Assembly (NCBI RefSeq): GCF_900094795.1
Contig: NZ_FMBC01000001.1
Coordinates: 186,001 to 250,000 of the forward strand
DNA length: 64,000 nucleotides
From: Kosakonia oryziphila
Lineage (GTDB): Bacteria > Pseudomonadota > Gammaproteobacteria > Enterobacterales > Enterobacteriaceae
Reading direction: 5' to 3'
This document shows positions 8,499 to 14,363 of the stretch, in pieces (the stretch's first letter is position 1; each line of letters begins with the position of its first letter). The notes below the pieces were generated by a model. That model was not told where the DNA came from and searched no databases. It saw nothing but the letters and a program-made list of their open reading frames with translations. The translations under genes and the position numbers were made by a program.

Positions 8499-9923
8499 AT
8501 GAGTACTGAAATCAAAACTCAGGTCGTGGTACTTGGGGCAGGCCCGGCAGGTTACTCTGCTGCCTTCCGTTGCGCTGATTTAGGTCTGGAAACCGTCATC
8601 GTTGAACGTTACAGCACCCTCGGCGGTGTTTGTCTGAATGTAGGTTGTATCCCTTCTAAAGCGCTGCTGCATGTAGCAAAAGTTATCGAAGAAGCCAAAG
8701 CGCTGGCTGAGCACGGTATTGTTTTCGGCGAGCCGAAAACTGATATCGACAAAATTCGTACCTGGAAAGAGAAAGTGATCACCCAACTGACCGGTGGTCT
8801 GTCGGGTATGGCGAAAGGCCGTAAAGTCAAAGTGGTCAACGGTCTGGGTAAATTCACCGGAGCGAACACGCTGGAAGTTGAAGGCGAAAACGGCAAAACC
8901 GTGATCAACTTTGACAACGCTATTATCGCGGCGGGTTCCCGTCCGATTCAGTTGCCGTTCATTCCGCACGAAGATCCACGCGTATGGGATTCCACCGATG
9001 CGCTGGAGCTGAAATCCGTACCGAAACGTATGCTGGTTATGGGCGGCGGTATCATCGGCCTGGAAATGGGTACCGTGTACCATGCGCTGGGTTCAGAGAT
9101 CGACGTGGTTGAAATGTTCGACCAGGTTATCCCGGCAGCAGATAAAGATATCGTTAAAGTCTTCACCAAACGCGTCAGCAAGAAATTCAACCTGATGCTG
9201 GAAACCAAAGTGACTGCCGTTGAAGCGAAAGAAGACGGCATTTACGTTTCCATGGAAGGCAAAAAAGCGCCTGCTGAAGCGCAGCGTTATGACGCCGTGC
9301 TGGTGGCTATCGGTCGTGTACCGAACGGTAAAAACCTCGATGCTGGCAAAGCAGGCGTTGAAGTGGACGATCGTGGCTTCATCCGCGTTGACAAACAGCT
9401 ACGCACCAACGTGCCGCACATCTTTGCTATCGGCGATATCGTCGGTCAGCCGATGCTGGCGCACAAAGGCGTGCATGAAGGTCATGTGGCCGCTGAAGTT
9501 ATCGCCGGTAAAAAACACTACTTTGATCCGAAAGTTATCCCGTCTATCGCTTACACCGAGCCAGAAGTTGCATGGGTTGGTCTGACTGAGAAAGAAGCGA
9601 AAGAGAAAGGCATTAGCTACGAAACCGCCACCTTCCCGTGGGCTGCTTCTGGTCGTGCTATCGCTTCCGATTGCGCGGACGGTATGACCAAACTGATTTT
9701 CGACAAAGAGACTCACCGCGTTATCGGTGGCGCGATTGTCGGCACCAATGGCGGCGAGCTGCTGGGTGAAATCGGTCTGGCGATCGAAATGGGTTGCGAC
9801 GCGGAAGATATCGCGCTGACCATTCACGCGCACCCGACGCTGCATGAATCTGTTGGCCTGGCCGCAGAAGTGTTCGAAGGAAGCATCACCGATCTGCCGA
9901 ACCCGAAAGCGAAAAAGAAATAA
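8499..9923 (+). CDS. lpd: Dihydrolipoamide dehydrogenase (E3)
   Basis: FAD- and NAD-linked disulfide oxidoreductase shared by pyruvate dehydrogenase, 2-oxoglutarate dehydrogenase and the glycine cleavage system. The FAD motif GAGPAGY is at the N-terminus, the redox disulfide C45/C50 lies in GGVCLNVGCIPSK, an NAD motif GGGIIGLEMG follows, and the catalytic HAHPTLHE is near residue 445. Two consecutive ATG codons occur at 8496 and 8499. The second gives 474 residues as in K-12 and better spacing (5 nt) from AGAGG. It is transcribed both with aceEF and from its own promoter. A strong terminator follows. Confidence 0.98.
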   Translation: MSTEIKTQVVVLGAGPAGYSAAFRCADLGLETVIVERYSTLGGVCLNVGCIPSKALLHVAKVIEEAKALAEHGIVFGEPKTDIDKIRTWKEKVITQLTGGLSGMAKGRKVKVVNGLGKFTGANTLEVEGENGKTVINFDNAIIAAGSRPIQLPFIPHEDPRVWDSTDALELKSVPKRMLVMGGGIIGLEMGTVYHALGSEIDVVEMFDQVIPAADKDIVKVFTKRVSKKFNLMLETKVTAVEAKEDGIYVSMEGKKAPAEAQRYDAVLVAIGRVPNGKNLDAGKAGVEVDDRGFIRVDKQLRTNVPHIFAIGDIVGQPMLAHKGVHEGHVAAEVIAGKKHYFDPKVIPSIAYTEPEVAWVGLTEKEAKEKGISYETATFPWAASGRAIASDCADGMTKLIFDKETHRVIGGAIVGTNGGELLGEIGLAIEMGCDAEDIALTIHAHPTLHESVGLAAEVFEGSITDLPNPKAKKK

Positions 9924-9940
9924 GTTTTCGCAGACAATAG

Positions 9941-9965
9941 ACGCCTCTTCGGAGGCGTTTTTTTT
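9941..9965 (+). terminator. lpd terminator
   Basis: ACGCCTC-TTC-GGAGGCG followed by nine T is a strong intrinsic terminator closing the PDH operon, so the next gene needs its own promoter. Confidence 0.93.
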
Positions 9966-10009
9966 GCGCTAATTTTGTCAGGTGACAGCTTTTTTCACTG
10001 CCAATGGTA

Positions 10010-10036
10010 TAAATATTACGCAGATTTTGCCGATAG
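10010..10036 (+). promoter_or_regulatory. Sigma-28 (FliA)-like promoter
   Basis: TAAATATT (10010-10017), exactly 11 bases, then GCCGATAG (10029-10036). The flagellar sigma-28 consensus is TAAAGTTT-N11-GCCGATAA, so 13 of 16 positions match with the exact spacing. It lies between the lpd terminator and the next gene, about 45 bases before its start. A sigma-70 extended -10 (TGG then TATAAA at 10008-10013) overlaps it. Both readings are inference from sequence. Confidence 0.6.
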
Positions 10037-10080
10037 TAACGACTATAGCCATTCCTGGCGAGATAAGGAGTTCTATCGTC

Positions 10081-11493
10081 ATGATCACCGGACTTAATCT
10101 CTCATCGCTCTCATCAGCAATGGGAGTGGCGTCAACTTCCCTGGCGAGCACCACGGTGCGTACAACTTCCAGTGCCGCCACGTCTGTCGAAACACCCTCT
10201 TCGACAAAAGTGATGTTTGGCAGCCAGACGTCTGATATTGCAGCAGTCTACAGCCTGTCGCCGAAAAAAATCAGCGCGACTTCACCACAAGATTCCGTGA
10301 TGAAGGGGTTATTGCAGGCCGCCGTCGACAGTAACTCATTATCCCCTTTAGGCAGTATTGGCAGCACATTGCTAAACAATCTGAAAGAGAGTCGTACCGA
10401 TGCCACCCACGCCGTTGCCAGCGTCACTGTGGGAGCGGCAGGTCAGCAATCTGCGGTTTCGCTGGATATTGTGACGCAATCGGGGTCTACCTTGCACCTC
10501 AGTATTGCGCAGAAAAATGATGGTGTTGTGGCGGAGCTAAAAACCGACGGCGAAGCACTGAATGACGATGAAGCCGCAGCCGTCGCGAACCTGGGCGCAT
10601 CGCTTGAGAAAGCGCTAAGCGGACTGGGGCAAAATCCGCCGAAAATCGATATTTCCGGGCTAACTAACTTTGACAGCAATGTGTTGAAATCTGTGGATTT
10701 AAAAACGGATGTTCGCGCTGATGATACTTCAGTACAGTCGCTGAATTTCCATGCCAGCACTACCGAACGCTATGTCGCCTATCAGGATAAGGATTTCTCG
10801 CTGAAAGTGAGCAGCGACCTGTCAAATCCAACATTGGCTGGTGACTATGCTCAGCAGCAGGCCACGTTAAGCGCCTACGATACTAAGTTTGATAAGGCTC
10901 GCTCGACCGGGCATGGCGATCGCGATCAGATGGCGGCACTGAAGTCGGTATTCCGCGCGTTAAACACCACCGCCAGCGCTGAGCGTACCGCACTTACGGT
11001 TGGTGCTGATATTCGCGTTGATAACAGCGGGCAGTCGCGACTGAGCGGGTTGAACGATTTCTCGCTGTCGCTGACGCAGAGTGATAAATCGACCAACCCT
11101 GCGCGCGAAGATGAAAAAGATCGTTTCTCTTATGAGGCATCCCAGTCGACGACACAAAACGTGCTCAGCGACGGTTCAAAAAGCGTAAAACAGACCTCGC
11201 GTAGCCACATTAGCGCAGCCTGGCATGAAGCGCTTGATCCCTCGATTCCGCTGGCGCTGAATAAGATGAAGTCGTCACAGAACTACACCTATCATCTGCT
11301 GGAGAATGATGAAGAGAGTTCTACCACGCTGAATTATAACAGCCATGGGATGCTTGCTTCAGTGGGGCACAACGAACAAGTAAACAACCGTGAAACGGTG
11401 AAAAAATATGTGCGCGGCGAGCTGGTGGATCAAACGATCATGCCGGTGCAATATGCGCGTAGTAACGTGCTTTCGCTGCTGAAGTCCGCATAA
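10081..11493 (+). CDS. Unrecognised Ser/Thr-rich protein, possibly flagellar regulon
   Basis: A 470-residue protein I do not recognise, at the place where K-12 has yacH, to which it bears no resemblance. The start is the ATG at 10081 with AAGGAG 10 bases upstream; the frame is open to 9982. There is no Sec signal peptide or membrane helix. The first 45 residues are almost all Ser, Thr, Ala, Gly and Leu (MITGLNLSSLSSAMGV...), like the disordered export signals of flagellar type III substrates. It has no cysteine and a single tryptophan. The middle (about 100-260) alternates short hydrophobic strands with Ser/Thr/Asp. The C-terminus contains RETVKKYVRGELVDQ. A sigma-28-like promoter precedes it and a terminator follows, so it is a single-gene unit. 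A role in motility or secretion is inference only. Confidence 0.85.
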   Translation: MITGLNLSSLSSAMGVASTSLASTTVRTTSSAATSVETPSSTKVMFGSQTSDIAAVYSLSPKKISATSPQDSVMKGLLQAAVDSNSLSPLGSIGSTLLNNLKESRTDATHAVASVTVGAAGQQSAVSLDIVTQSGSTLHLSIAQKNDGVVAELKTDGEALNDDEAAAVANLGASLEKALSGLGQNPPKIDISGLTNFDSNVLKSVDLKTDVRADDTSVQSLNFHASTTERYVAYQDKDFSLKVSSDLSNPTLAGDYAQQQATLSAYDTKFDKARSTGHGDRDQMAALKSVFRALNTTASAERTALTVGADIRVDNSGQSRLSGLNDFSLSLTQSDKSTNPAREDEKDRFSYEASQSTTQNVLSDGSKSVKQTSRSHISAAWHEALDPSIPLALNKMKSSQNYTYHLLENDEESSTTLNYNSHGMLASVGHNEQVNNRETVKKYVRGELVDQTIMPVQYARSNVLSLLKSA

Positions 11494-11505
11494 CCCTGTC
11501 ATAAC

Positions 11506-11530
11506 AAAACGGCTCAGCGGAGCCGTTTTT
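11506..11530 (+). terminator. Terminator of the unrecognised gene
   Basis: AAAACGGCTC-AGCG-GAGCCGTTTTT, 13 bases after the stop codon, is a strong hairpin with a T tract that isolates the gene from acnB. Confidence 0.9.
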
Positions 11531-11635
11531 CATGGTTTTTAGCGTCGATTCTGTTTCGTTAAAACCCTCTGTAGCCTGCATTATTCCGTCCTTAACGATT
11601 CAGCAAGTATTTAATGTTGCTTTTTTGTAAACAGA

Positions 11636-11664
11636 TTAACACCCCCTGAAAATCCTGCTATGCT
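11636..11664 (+). promoter_or_regulatory. acnB promoter
   Basis: TTAACA (11636-11641), a 17-bp spacer and TATGCT (11659-11664) form a good sigma-70 promoter about 100 bases before the acnB start. Confidence 0.7.
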
Positions 11665-11765
11665 GCCCGACGCGGTTCGCGGATTTACCCTACAAACTGC
11701 TGTCTCACAGGAGCGTGAAGAGAAACGCCTGCCGCATTATGACAATGAGAGCGAGGAGAACCGTC

Positions 11766-14363
11766 GTGCTAGAAGAATACCGTAAGCACGTAGCTGAACG
11801 TGCCGCTGAGGGGATTGCGCCAAAACCATTAGATGCAACCCAGATGGCAGGCCTTGTCGAGCTGCTGAAAAGCCCGCCTGCTGGCGAAGAAGAATTCCTG
11901 ATTGATCTGCTGACTAACCGTGTCCCGCCGGGCGTTGATGAAGCCGCTTATGTAAAAGCGGGTTTCCTTGCCGCTGTCGCCAAAGGCGAAGCCACCTCCC
12001 CACTGGTTACCCCTGAAAAAGCCATCGAACTGCTGGGCACCATGCAAGGGGGTTACAACATCCATCCGCTGATTGATGCGCTGGATAACAATAAACTGGC
12101 GCCGATTGCTGCCAAAGCGCTGTCCCATACGCTGCTGATGTTCGATAACTTCTACGATGTGGAAGAGAAAGCCAAAGCAGGCAATGCCTGGGCGAAACAA
12201 GTAATGCAATCCTGGGCCGACGCCGAGTGGTTCCTTAACCGTCCAGCTCTGGCGGAAAAAATTACCGTTACCGTCTTCAAAGTGACGGGCGAAACCAACA
12301 CCGACGATCTCTCTCCGGCACCAGACGCCTGGTCGCGTCCGGATATCCCGCTGCACGCGCTGGCGATGCTGAAAAATGCCCGCGAAGGCATTGAACCGGA
12401 TCAACCAGGTGTTGTTGGCCCGATCAAACAGATCGAGCAACTGGCGAAAAAAGGTTTCCCGCTGGCGTACGTTGGTGACGTCGTGGGTACCGGTTCTTCC
12501 CGTAAATCTGCCACCAACTCCGTACTGTGGTTTATGGGCGACGACATTCCTCATGTGCCGAACAAACGCGGCGGCGGCCTGGTGCTGGGCGGCAAAATCG
12601 CGCCTATCTTCTTCAATACTATGGAAGATGCCGGTGCGCTGCCGATCGAAGTGGATGTCAGCAGACTGAACATGGGCGACGTGATTGACGTTTACCCGTT
12701 CAAAGGTGAAGTGCGCAACCATGAAACCGGTGAACTGCTGGCCAGTTTCGAACTGAAAACCGATGTGCTGATCGATGAAGTACGTGCTGGTGGCCGTATT
12801 CCGCTGATTATTGGCCGTGGCCTGACCACCAAAGCGCGTGAAGCGCTGGGGCTGCCGCACAGCGACGTATTCCGCCAGGCAAAAGATGTGGCAGAAAGTA
12901 ACCGCGGTTACTCGCTGGCGCAGAAAATGGTGGGCCGTGCCTGTGGCGTTGCGGGTGTCCGTCCGGGAGCTTATTGCGAACCGAAAATGACCTCTGTCGG
13001 CTCCCAGGACACCACCGGCCCGATGACCCGTGATGAACTGAAAGATCTGGCGTGCCTGGGCTTCTCTTCCGATCTGGTGATGCAGTCCTTCTGCCATACC
13101 GCTGCGTATCCGAAGCCGGTTGACGTCACTACGCACCATACGCTGCCGGACTTCATTATGAACCGTGGCGGTGTTTCCCTGCGTCCGGGCGATGGCGTGA
13201 TCCACTCCTGGCTTAACCGCATGCTGCTGCCGGATACGGTCGGTACCGGTGGTGACTCCCACACCCGTTTCCCGATCGGCATCTCTTTCCCGGCGGGTTC
13301 CGGCCTGGTAGCGTTTGCCGCCGCGACCGGCGTCATGCCGCTGGATATGCCGGAATCGGTGCTGGTGCGCTTTAAAGGTAAAATGCAGCCGGGCATCACG
13401 CTGCGCGATCTGGTGCATGCTATCCCGCTGTATGCCATCAAACAGGGTCTGCTGACCGTTGAGAAGAAAGGCAAGAAAAACATCTTCTCCGGCCGCATTC
13501 TGGAAATCGAAGGCCTGCCGGATCTGAAAGTCGAGCAGGCGTTTGAGCTTACCGATGCGTCCGCTGAACGTTCCGCTGCTGGTTGTACCATCAAGCTGAA
13601 CAAAGAGCCGATTGTTGAGTACCTGAGCTCCAACATTGTGCTGTTGAAGTGGATGATTGCAGAAGGCTACGGCGACCGTCGTACGCTGGAACGTCGTGTC
13701 CAGGGCATGGAAAAATGGCTGGCAAATCCGCAACTGCTGGAAGCCGATGCTGACGCAGAATATGCGGCGGTGATTGACATCGATCTGGCGGAAATCAAAG
13801 AGCCGATCCTCTGTGCGCCGAACGATCCGGATGATGCGCGTCTGCTGTCTGACGTGCAGGGTGCCAGCATTGATGAAGTGTTCATCGGTTCCTGCATGAC
13901 CAACATCGGACACTTCCGTGCCGCCGGTAAGCTGCTGGACAGCCATAAAGGTCAGTTGCCGACCCGGCTGTGGGTGGCACCGCCAACCCGTATGGATGCT
14001 GCGCAACTGACGGAAGAGGGCTACTACAGCGTGTTCGGTAAGAGCGGCGCGCGTATCGAGATCCCGGGTTGTTCCCTGTGCATGGGTAACCAGGCGCGTG
14101 TGGCCGATGGCGCAACGGTGGTTTCGACCTCGACGCGTAACTTCCCGAACCGTTTAGGTACCGGTGCAAATGTCTACCTGGCCTCTGCGGAACTGGCTGC
14201 GGTTGCAGCGTTGATTGGTAAACTGCCGACGCCGGAAGAGTACCAGACCTATATTGCTCAGGTTGATAAGACGGCGGTGGATACCTATCGTTATCTGAAC
14301 TTCGACAAGCTTAATCAGTACACCGAAAAAGCCGACGGTGTGATTTTCCAGACTGCCGTCTGA
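11766..14363 (+). CDS. acnB: Aconitate hydratase B / 2-methylisocitrate dehydratase
   Basis: Main TCA-cycle aconitase, interconverting citrate and isocitrate. Its apo form binds mRNA. The start is the GTG at 11766 (LEEYRKHV), with GAGGAG upstream, giving 865 residues as in K-12; the frame is open to 11715. An N-terminal HEAT-like domain is followed by the swivel domain ([15 protein letters not shown]). The [4Fe-4S] ligands are C710 (GSCMTN), C769 and C772 (GCSLCMGNQ). It is monocistronic, with its own promoter and terminator. Confidence 0.98.

Follow-up and report, generated by a model that had tools for sequence, protein, structure and literature searches.

A gene between lpd and acnB in Kosakonia belongs to an unnamed family preceded by a predicted FliA promoter

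Introduction

According to the part of PMC4183435 used here, flxA, yjcZ and ynjH of E. coli are FliA-dependent accessory genes located outside the flagellar clusters. The gene described in this study resembles them in being a single gene apart from the flagellar operons with a putative FliA promoter of its own. To our knowledge, the roles of flxA, yjcZ and ynjH are unsettled. Our family is set apart from these three by its length (470–531 aa), by the absence of cysteine from most members and by the lack of a Pfam domain in the window protein.

A second point of comparison is provided by the export substrates of the flagellar type III apparatus. The export signals of FlgD, as described in part of PMC8983047, are non-polar residues at positions 2–5 and a gate motif at 36–40. 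The protein studied here is similar to such substrates in lacking cysteine, in its acid-poor N-terminus rich in Ser, Thr, Asn and Ala, in its non-polar start and in a motif near residue 40. It differs from FlgD-type substrates in sharing no Pfam domain with them, in lacking a Phe-type gate motif and in being encoded outside flagellar operons, and is a candidate substrate only. The third comparison is positional: the lpd-acnB interval which harbors our gene is filled in E. coli, for example in strain J53, by yacH. However, yacH lies on the opposite strand, and our protein has no Pfam match to the DUF3300 domain of YacH or to any other.

Results

A single-gene unit in the lpd-acnB interval

The window analyzed is a stretch of 64,000 nt from Kosakonia oryziphila (NCBI RefSeq assembly GCF_900094795.1, contig NZ_FMBC01000001.1, positions 186,001–250,000 of the forward strand). 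The gene at 10081–11493 is a single-gene transcription unit between two terminator-like sites in the interval between lpd and acnB (Table 1). An initial annotation, made from the sequence alone, had placed a cysteine-free ORF of 470 codons flanked by terminators between these two genes, and this description was borne out. It had also taken the genus for Escherichia, which was mistaken, as the host is a Kosakonia and the nearest named relative of the gene is found in K. sacchari SP1 (93% protein identity). Relative to SP1 the gene appears to be under purifying selection (dN 0.031 and dS 0.274), and thus it looks real. A blastn search in distant mode, within the sensitivity of that program, gave no match to the gene in a collection of 5,426 E. 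coli genomes.

Table 1. Coordinates in the window of the gene, its borders and the predicted parts of its product
Feature	Position	Strand	Basis
Upstream border, terminator-like site after lpd	9939..9960	+	9-pair stem with 5 GC pairs, 4-base loop, T run
Predicted FliA (sigma-28) promoter, TAAATATT - 11 bases - GCCGATAG	10010..10036	+	13/16 consensus positions; present before relatives
Ribosome binding site AAGGAG	10065..10070	+	sequence read
Gene for 470-aa protein of unnamed family, ATG at 10081	10081..11493	+	no Cys, no hydrophobic segment, purifying selection
Residues 1–49, candidate type III export signal, predicted disordered, Ser/Thr/Ala-rich, acid-poor	10081..10227	+	pLDDT <50, composition, motif
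Residues 48–298, predicted folded domain of two four-strand units plus helices	10222..10974	+	model mce5eabef5356 of these residues alone, pLDDT 85.8, pTM 0.86
Residues 320–470, predicted long antiparallel beta strands with invariant SQNYxY	11038..11490	+	model me9b6a8bf8325; alignment A1
Downstream border, terminator-like site	11506..11529	+	10-pair stem, 4-base loop, T-rich tail

FliA-like sites in the window and elsewhere in the genome

The half-sites TAAATATT (10010–10017) and GCCGATAG (10029–10036) are separated by an 11-base spacer. Compared with the consensus TAAAGTTT-N11-GCCGATAA, the box has the exact spacing and agrees at 13 of 16 positions, as initially annotated, but lies 44 bases upstream of the ATG and not 45. 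In 1000 dinucleotide shuffles of the upstream 150 bases, its score was never attained. Two matrices were used for scoring. The 13-site matrix was assembled from E. coli FliA sites picked from part of Table 2 of PMC4183435, among them motA, fliD and yjcZ, which bear no visible star there, with fliA and ves left out; the stricter 11-site matrix took the starred sites of that part of the table, including fliA. Because both were built from published E. coli sites, circularity was avoided. The window box scored 16.2 bits with the 13-site matrix and 13.9 bits with the 11-site matrix, the latter being lower than the lowest E. coli site in that matrix (16.8 bits), although those sites are its training set. 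FliA itself is encoded in the genome (TIGR02479, over the cut-off). A sigma-70 element overlapping the box had also been proposed. The TATAAA sequence does overlap the box, but a simple sigma-70 scan of 9500–12000 listed no site there, its sole site preceding acnB.

This genome has 11 copies of the exact core TAAA-N15-GCCGATA, one of them at the window gene. Seven of the 11 precede flagellar or chemotaxis genes as judged by Pfam, namely three encoding chemoreceptors (MCPs) and one each for FlgM, MotA, a YjfB-type protein and an EAL protein like PdeH; the others are located before a KTSC gene (one) and inside ORFs (two). When up to one mismatch was allowed, 227 sites were found against 93 for the reversed pattern, and therefore a weak site alone has little meaning. 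The KTSC-domain gene, which encodes 77 aa (L052 1501–1793; G000 contig 39, from 86438) and whose exact core belongs to a box matching at 13 of 16 positions, is a possible second FliA target in this genome.

Family searches and distribution

At E values up to 1, neither Pfam, NCBIfam and PHROGs nor the PDB sequences contained a match to the window protein. When 27 members were searched singly against Pfam, weak matches were scattered over eight families in one or two members each (best E 0.009), none of them flagellar; flagellin, hook-associated and rod domains of Pfam were found neither in the window protein nor in the 27 members. There was likewise no match in PDB with the family alignment as a profile, none in phage records with the relative L021 as query, and no description of the family in the titles and abstract openings listed by literature searches. 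The gene had been called unrecognised, which holds for Pfam, NCBIfam, PHROGs, PDB sequences and the alignment searches.

All of the 15 Kosakonia genomes searched match the family. Among 295 sampled Enterobacteriaceae genomes 24 match, of which 23 are true carriers: 22 with an intact gene, distributed over ten genera, and G028. The remaining match, in G292, is astE according to its neighbours as read by eye, and was dropped from the family. G028 is a frame-shifted assembly in which lpd, aceE, aceF and the family gene are all in pieces (L049). As lpd, aceE and aceF are broken too, the fragmentation is probably an effect of sequencing quality and not gene decay. In the wider samples, the family was carried by 4 of 394 genomes of the order, none of them outside Enterobacteriaceae and one being our own; by 1 of 274 genomes of the class, which is our own, with two weak matches (E 0.04 and 0.5) ignored; and by 6 of 398 genomes of the phylum, again including our own, three of these carriers belonging to other families. 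Plasmid members were found in 14 Pantoea records, two Paraburkholderia records and one of Pseudomonas silvicola. The last (L086 6001–7287, plasmid p1) is frame-shifted, with six stops in the frame read, and has a FliA box matching at 14 of 16 positions upstream.

Identity among the members falls to 29%. By eye, the gene occupies about a dozen neighbourhoods, both chromosomal and plasmid-borne, and two divergent forms of the family coexist in genus g25. These neighbourhoods are unrelated, and the pattern suggests that the gene has spread horizontally among gamma- and beta-proteobacteria as a single gene together with its own promoter.

FliA (TIGR02479) exceeds the cut-off in all 22 intact carriers, but also in 188 of all 295 sampled genomes, and only ten genomes of at least 3 Mb in this sample have no strong FliA match. 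Since so few large genomes are devoid of FliA, the co-occurrence says little, and we set it aside as evidence. All three carriers from other families also encode FliA, which is weakly informative.

The FliA box precedes most members of the family

We compared upstream regions of the family with those of control ORFs. The control ORFs were called mechanically, and some of their starts are therefore wrong. The counts for the family refer to 34 members, or to 37 when three distant members are added, and in both sets near relatives are counted repeatedly; L005 and L032 apparently represent the same genome. The G028 pieces, G292, the frame-shifted L086, 9 of the 17 plasmid records, the duplicates L033–L035, L097 and L098 and the later loci L105–L117 were left out of them.

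At a threshold of at least 10 bits, the 13-site matrix identified a FliA box in 35 of 37 family regions and in 2 of 248 controls (AUC 0.987), and the 11-site matrix in 32 and 3, respectively (AUC 0.991). With the 13-site matrix, lowering the threshold to 7 bits gave 35 family regions and 13 controls, and 5 bits gave 36 and 24. The two top-scoring controls with either matrix are chemoreceptor (MCP) genes. By plain consensus, at least 13 positions matched in 25 of 34 members and in a single control of 223, which is also an MCP gene, while at least 11 matched in all 34 members and 16 of the 223 controls. The shuffling p value was at most 0.05 in 30 of the 34 members taken singly and exceeded 0.05 in L006–L009. 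The 34 members form 17 clusters at 75% identity, and 16 of these hold a member scoring at least 10 bits with the 11-site matrix. In the later loci L105–L117, two of which come from genomes counted before, 12–14 of the 16 box positions matched in 13 of 13.

Two members are exceptions under both matrices, L100 (1.8 and 6.1 bits) and L091 (6.3 and 6.6 bits), and L007–L009 miss the 10-bit threshold under the 11-site matrix only (8.7–9.6 bits). L100 (genome G1136; region upstream of 1435) is a full-length member with no recognisable FliA box, although its genome encodes FliA; by eye, the upstream stretch contains the end of an apparent tRNA gene. MCP genes with a FliA box of their own are located near the family gene at two loci from two genera, 0.7 kb upstream of it at L038 (4570–6510) and, with one ORF between, 3.8 kb upstream at L041 (1137–3080).

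In a sequence logo of the 17 cluster representatives, 11 of the 16 element positions carried at least 1.2 bits, and the spacer and flanks did not exceed 0.5 bits; this is partly so by construction because the logo was built from the best-matching sites. The GTATAAA sequence overlapping the box was present in 3 of the 17 representatives, as well as in the window and several Kosakonia relatives, and this frequency speaks against a sigma-70 start shared across the family.

Composition, N-terminus and predicted structure of the protein

Cysteine is absent from 35 of the 37 members (the 34 and three more; 33 of the 34), the other two having one each, and from 4 of 60 control ORFs of 400–560 aa. In our own genome, the flg cluster encodes seven cysteine-free rod and hook proteins, named by eye, and the cytoplasmic FliA as well as CheY and CheW (by eye) are also cysteine-free. 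The N-terminus had been described as rich in Ser, Thr and Ala, and indeed residues 2–45 contain 52% S/T/A/N and 1.9% D/E versus 25% and 10% in the window ORFs; 28 of the 34 members pass a joint cut on both values, compared with 11 of the 237 controls. The protein starts with the non-polar MITGL. Of the 37 members, 36 carry the motif S-x-x-V-x-hydrophobic with its start at positions 34–42 (residues 41–46 in the window protein), as do 2 of the 237 controls, although the motif was derived from the family itself. The gate motif of rod and hook subunits has the consensus Phe-x-x-x-hydrophobic. Residues 1–50 of the window protein lack it, their sole Phe, F46, beginning FGSQT, and we therefore did not file the protein as a rod or hook substrate. 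The peak 19-mer average of hydrophobicity (0.94, Kyte-Doolittle) falls short of what a membrane helix or a Sec core requires, confirming the initial reading on this point.

The AlphaFold model of the whole protein (me9b6a8bf8325) has a pLDDT of 79.5 and a pTM of 0.78, with residues 1–49 below 50, and predicts long antiparallel strands for most of residues 326–465. Foldseek searches of PDB and of viral models yielded no match at E 0.001. In VIA-align, the whole model matched TonB-dependent transporters and porins with Z scores reaching 9.4 at an rmsd of about 8–14 angstrom, whereas the model of the N-domain had no Z of at least 5, its best being 4.4 with mostly MHC-like chains. We read the VIA-align matches as a common hairpin pattern and not as kinship. 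No convincing fold relative of the models was found, which does not by itself prove a new fold, and no match of Foldseek or VIA-align pointed outside the cell.

Discussion

The box counts of family and controls make it very likely that the gene belongs to the FliA-controlled late flagellar regulon. Co-regulation with motility had been proposed from a single site; it is now strongly supported beyond such evidence, because the FliA box precedes relatives in unrelated neighbourhoods. If the FliA-like site were instead fortuitous or inactive, the gene would be non-flagellar and transcribed from the overlapping TATAAA as a sigma-70 −10 element. The overlap seen in the window and several Kosakonia relatives, the three consensus positions missed by the window box and the abundance of one-mismatch cores in the genome would all fit this explanation. 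However, the low frequency of GTATAAA among the representatives, the near absence of information immediately 5′ of the box and the result of the sigma-70 scan speak against it, and the difference between 35/37 and 2/248, with a matrix drawn from part of the published table, is not due to chance. We regard a sigma-70 origin as very improbable.

Once the hook is complete, the anti-sigma factor FlgM exits the cell and FliA becomes active. We propose that the gene is a lone late (class 3) gene of the flagellar regulon with a sigma-28 promoter of its own, which FliA-RNA polymerase, as the conserved sequence suggests, would then transcribe alongside the flagellin, motor and chemoreceptor genes. The disordered, acid-poor N-terminus may guide the protein into the flagellar type III export gate; the cysteine-free body would traverse the channel and fold outside into a beta-rich domain, which could act at the flagellum or farther out, the filament and surfaces being possible targets. 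No export chaperone was found among the neighbouring ORFs. Composition and predicted disorder fit export by the flagellar apparatus, whose chances we put at about even. The proposal as a whole, in which the product of this class 3 gene is a late flagellar cargo acting outside the cell, depends mainly on the export step, and we give it barely better than an even chance.

The main competing explanation is that the protein is FliA-dependent but stays in the cytoplasm, where it would adjust motility, chemotaxis or the transition between a swimming and an attached state like the FliA-driven YcgR and YhjH of E. coli. The FliA box is equally good evidence for this, several products of the FliA regulon reside in the cytoplasm, where cysteine-free proteins also occur, and the export signal is a candidate only. 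Nevertheless, a cytoplasmic role leaves unexplained why cysteine is absent from nearly all members despite their divergence and why the disordered, acid-poor N-terminus carries one conserved motif, and Pfam detects no signalling domain such as EAL or PilZ; we consider this role a substantial possibility that falls appreciably short of even. Export by the Sec route as a porin-like outer-membrane or secreted beta-barrel, to which the Z scores with transporters and porins might point in spite of their large rmsd, is extremely improbable, as the protein is without a hydrophobic segment suited to a signal peptide, Foldseek returned no match at its threshold and the N-domain model reached no Z of 5.

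Returning to the late-cargo proposal, its broadest form is that the gene is a mobile, self-promotered flagellar cargo, which joins the late regulon of a motile host and exports a new beta-rich protein directed at surfaces, hosts or competitors. We put this forward tentatively, as not far below an even chance. An unnamed family with a FliA promoter nearly everywhere it is found suggests that horizontal transfer supplies the flagellar regulon with accessory genes. Should export prove true, a non-structural protein would join the cargo of the flagellum, and the family would offer a natural export signal made of two short conserved elements for studying how the gate chooses its substrates.
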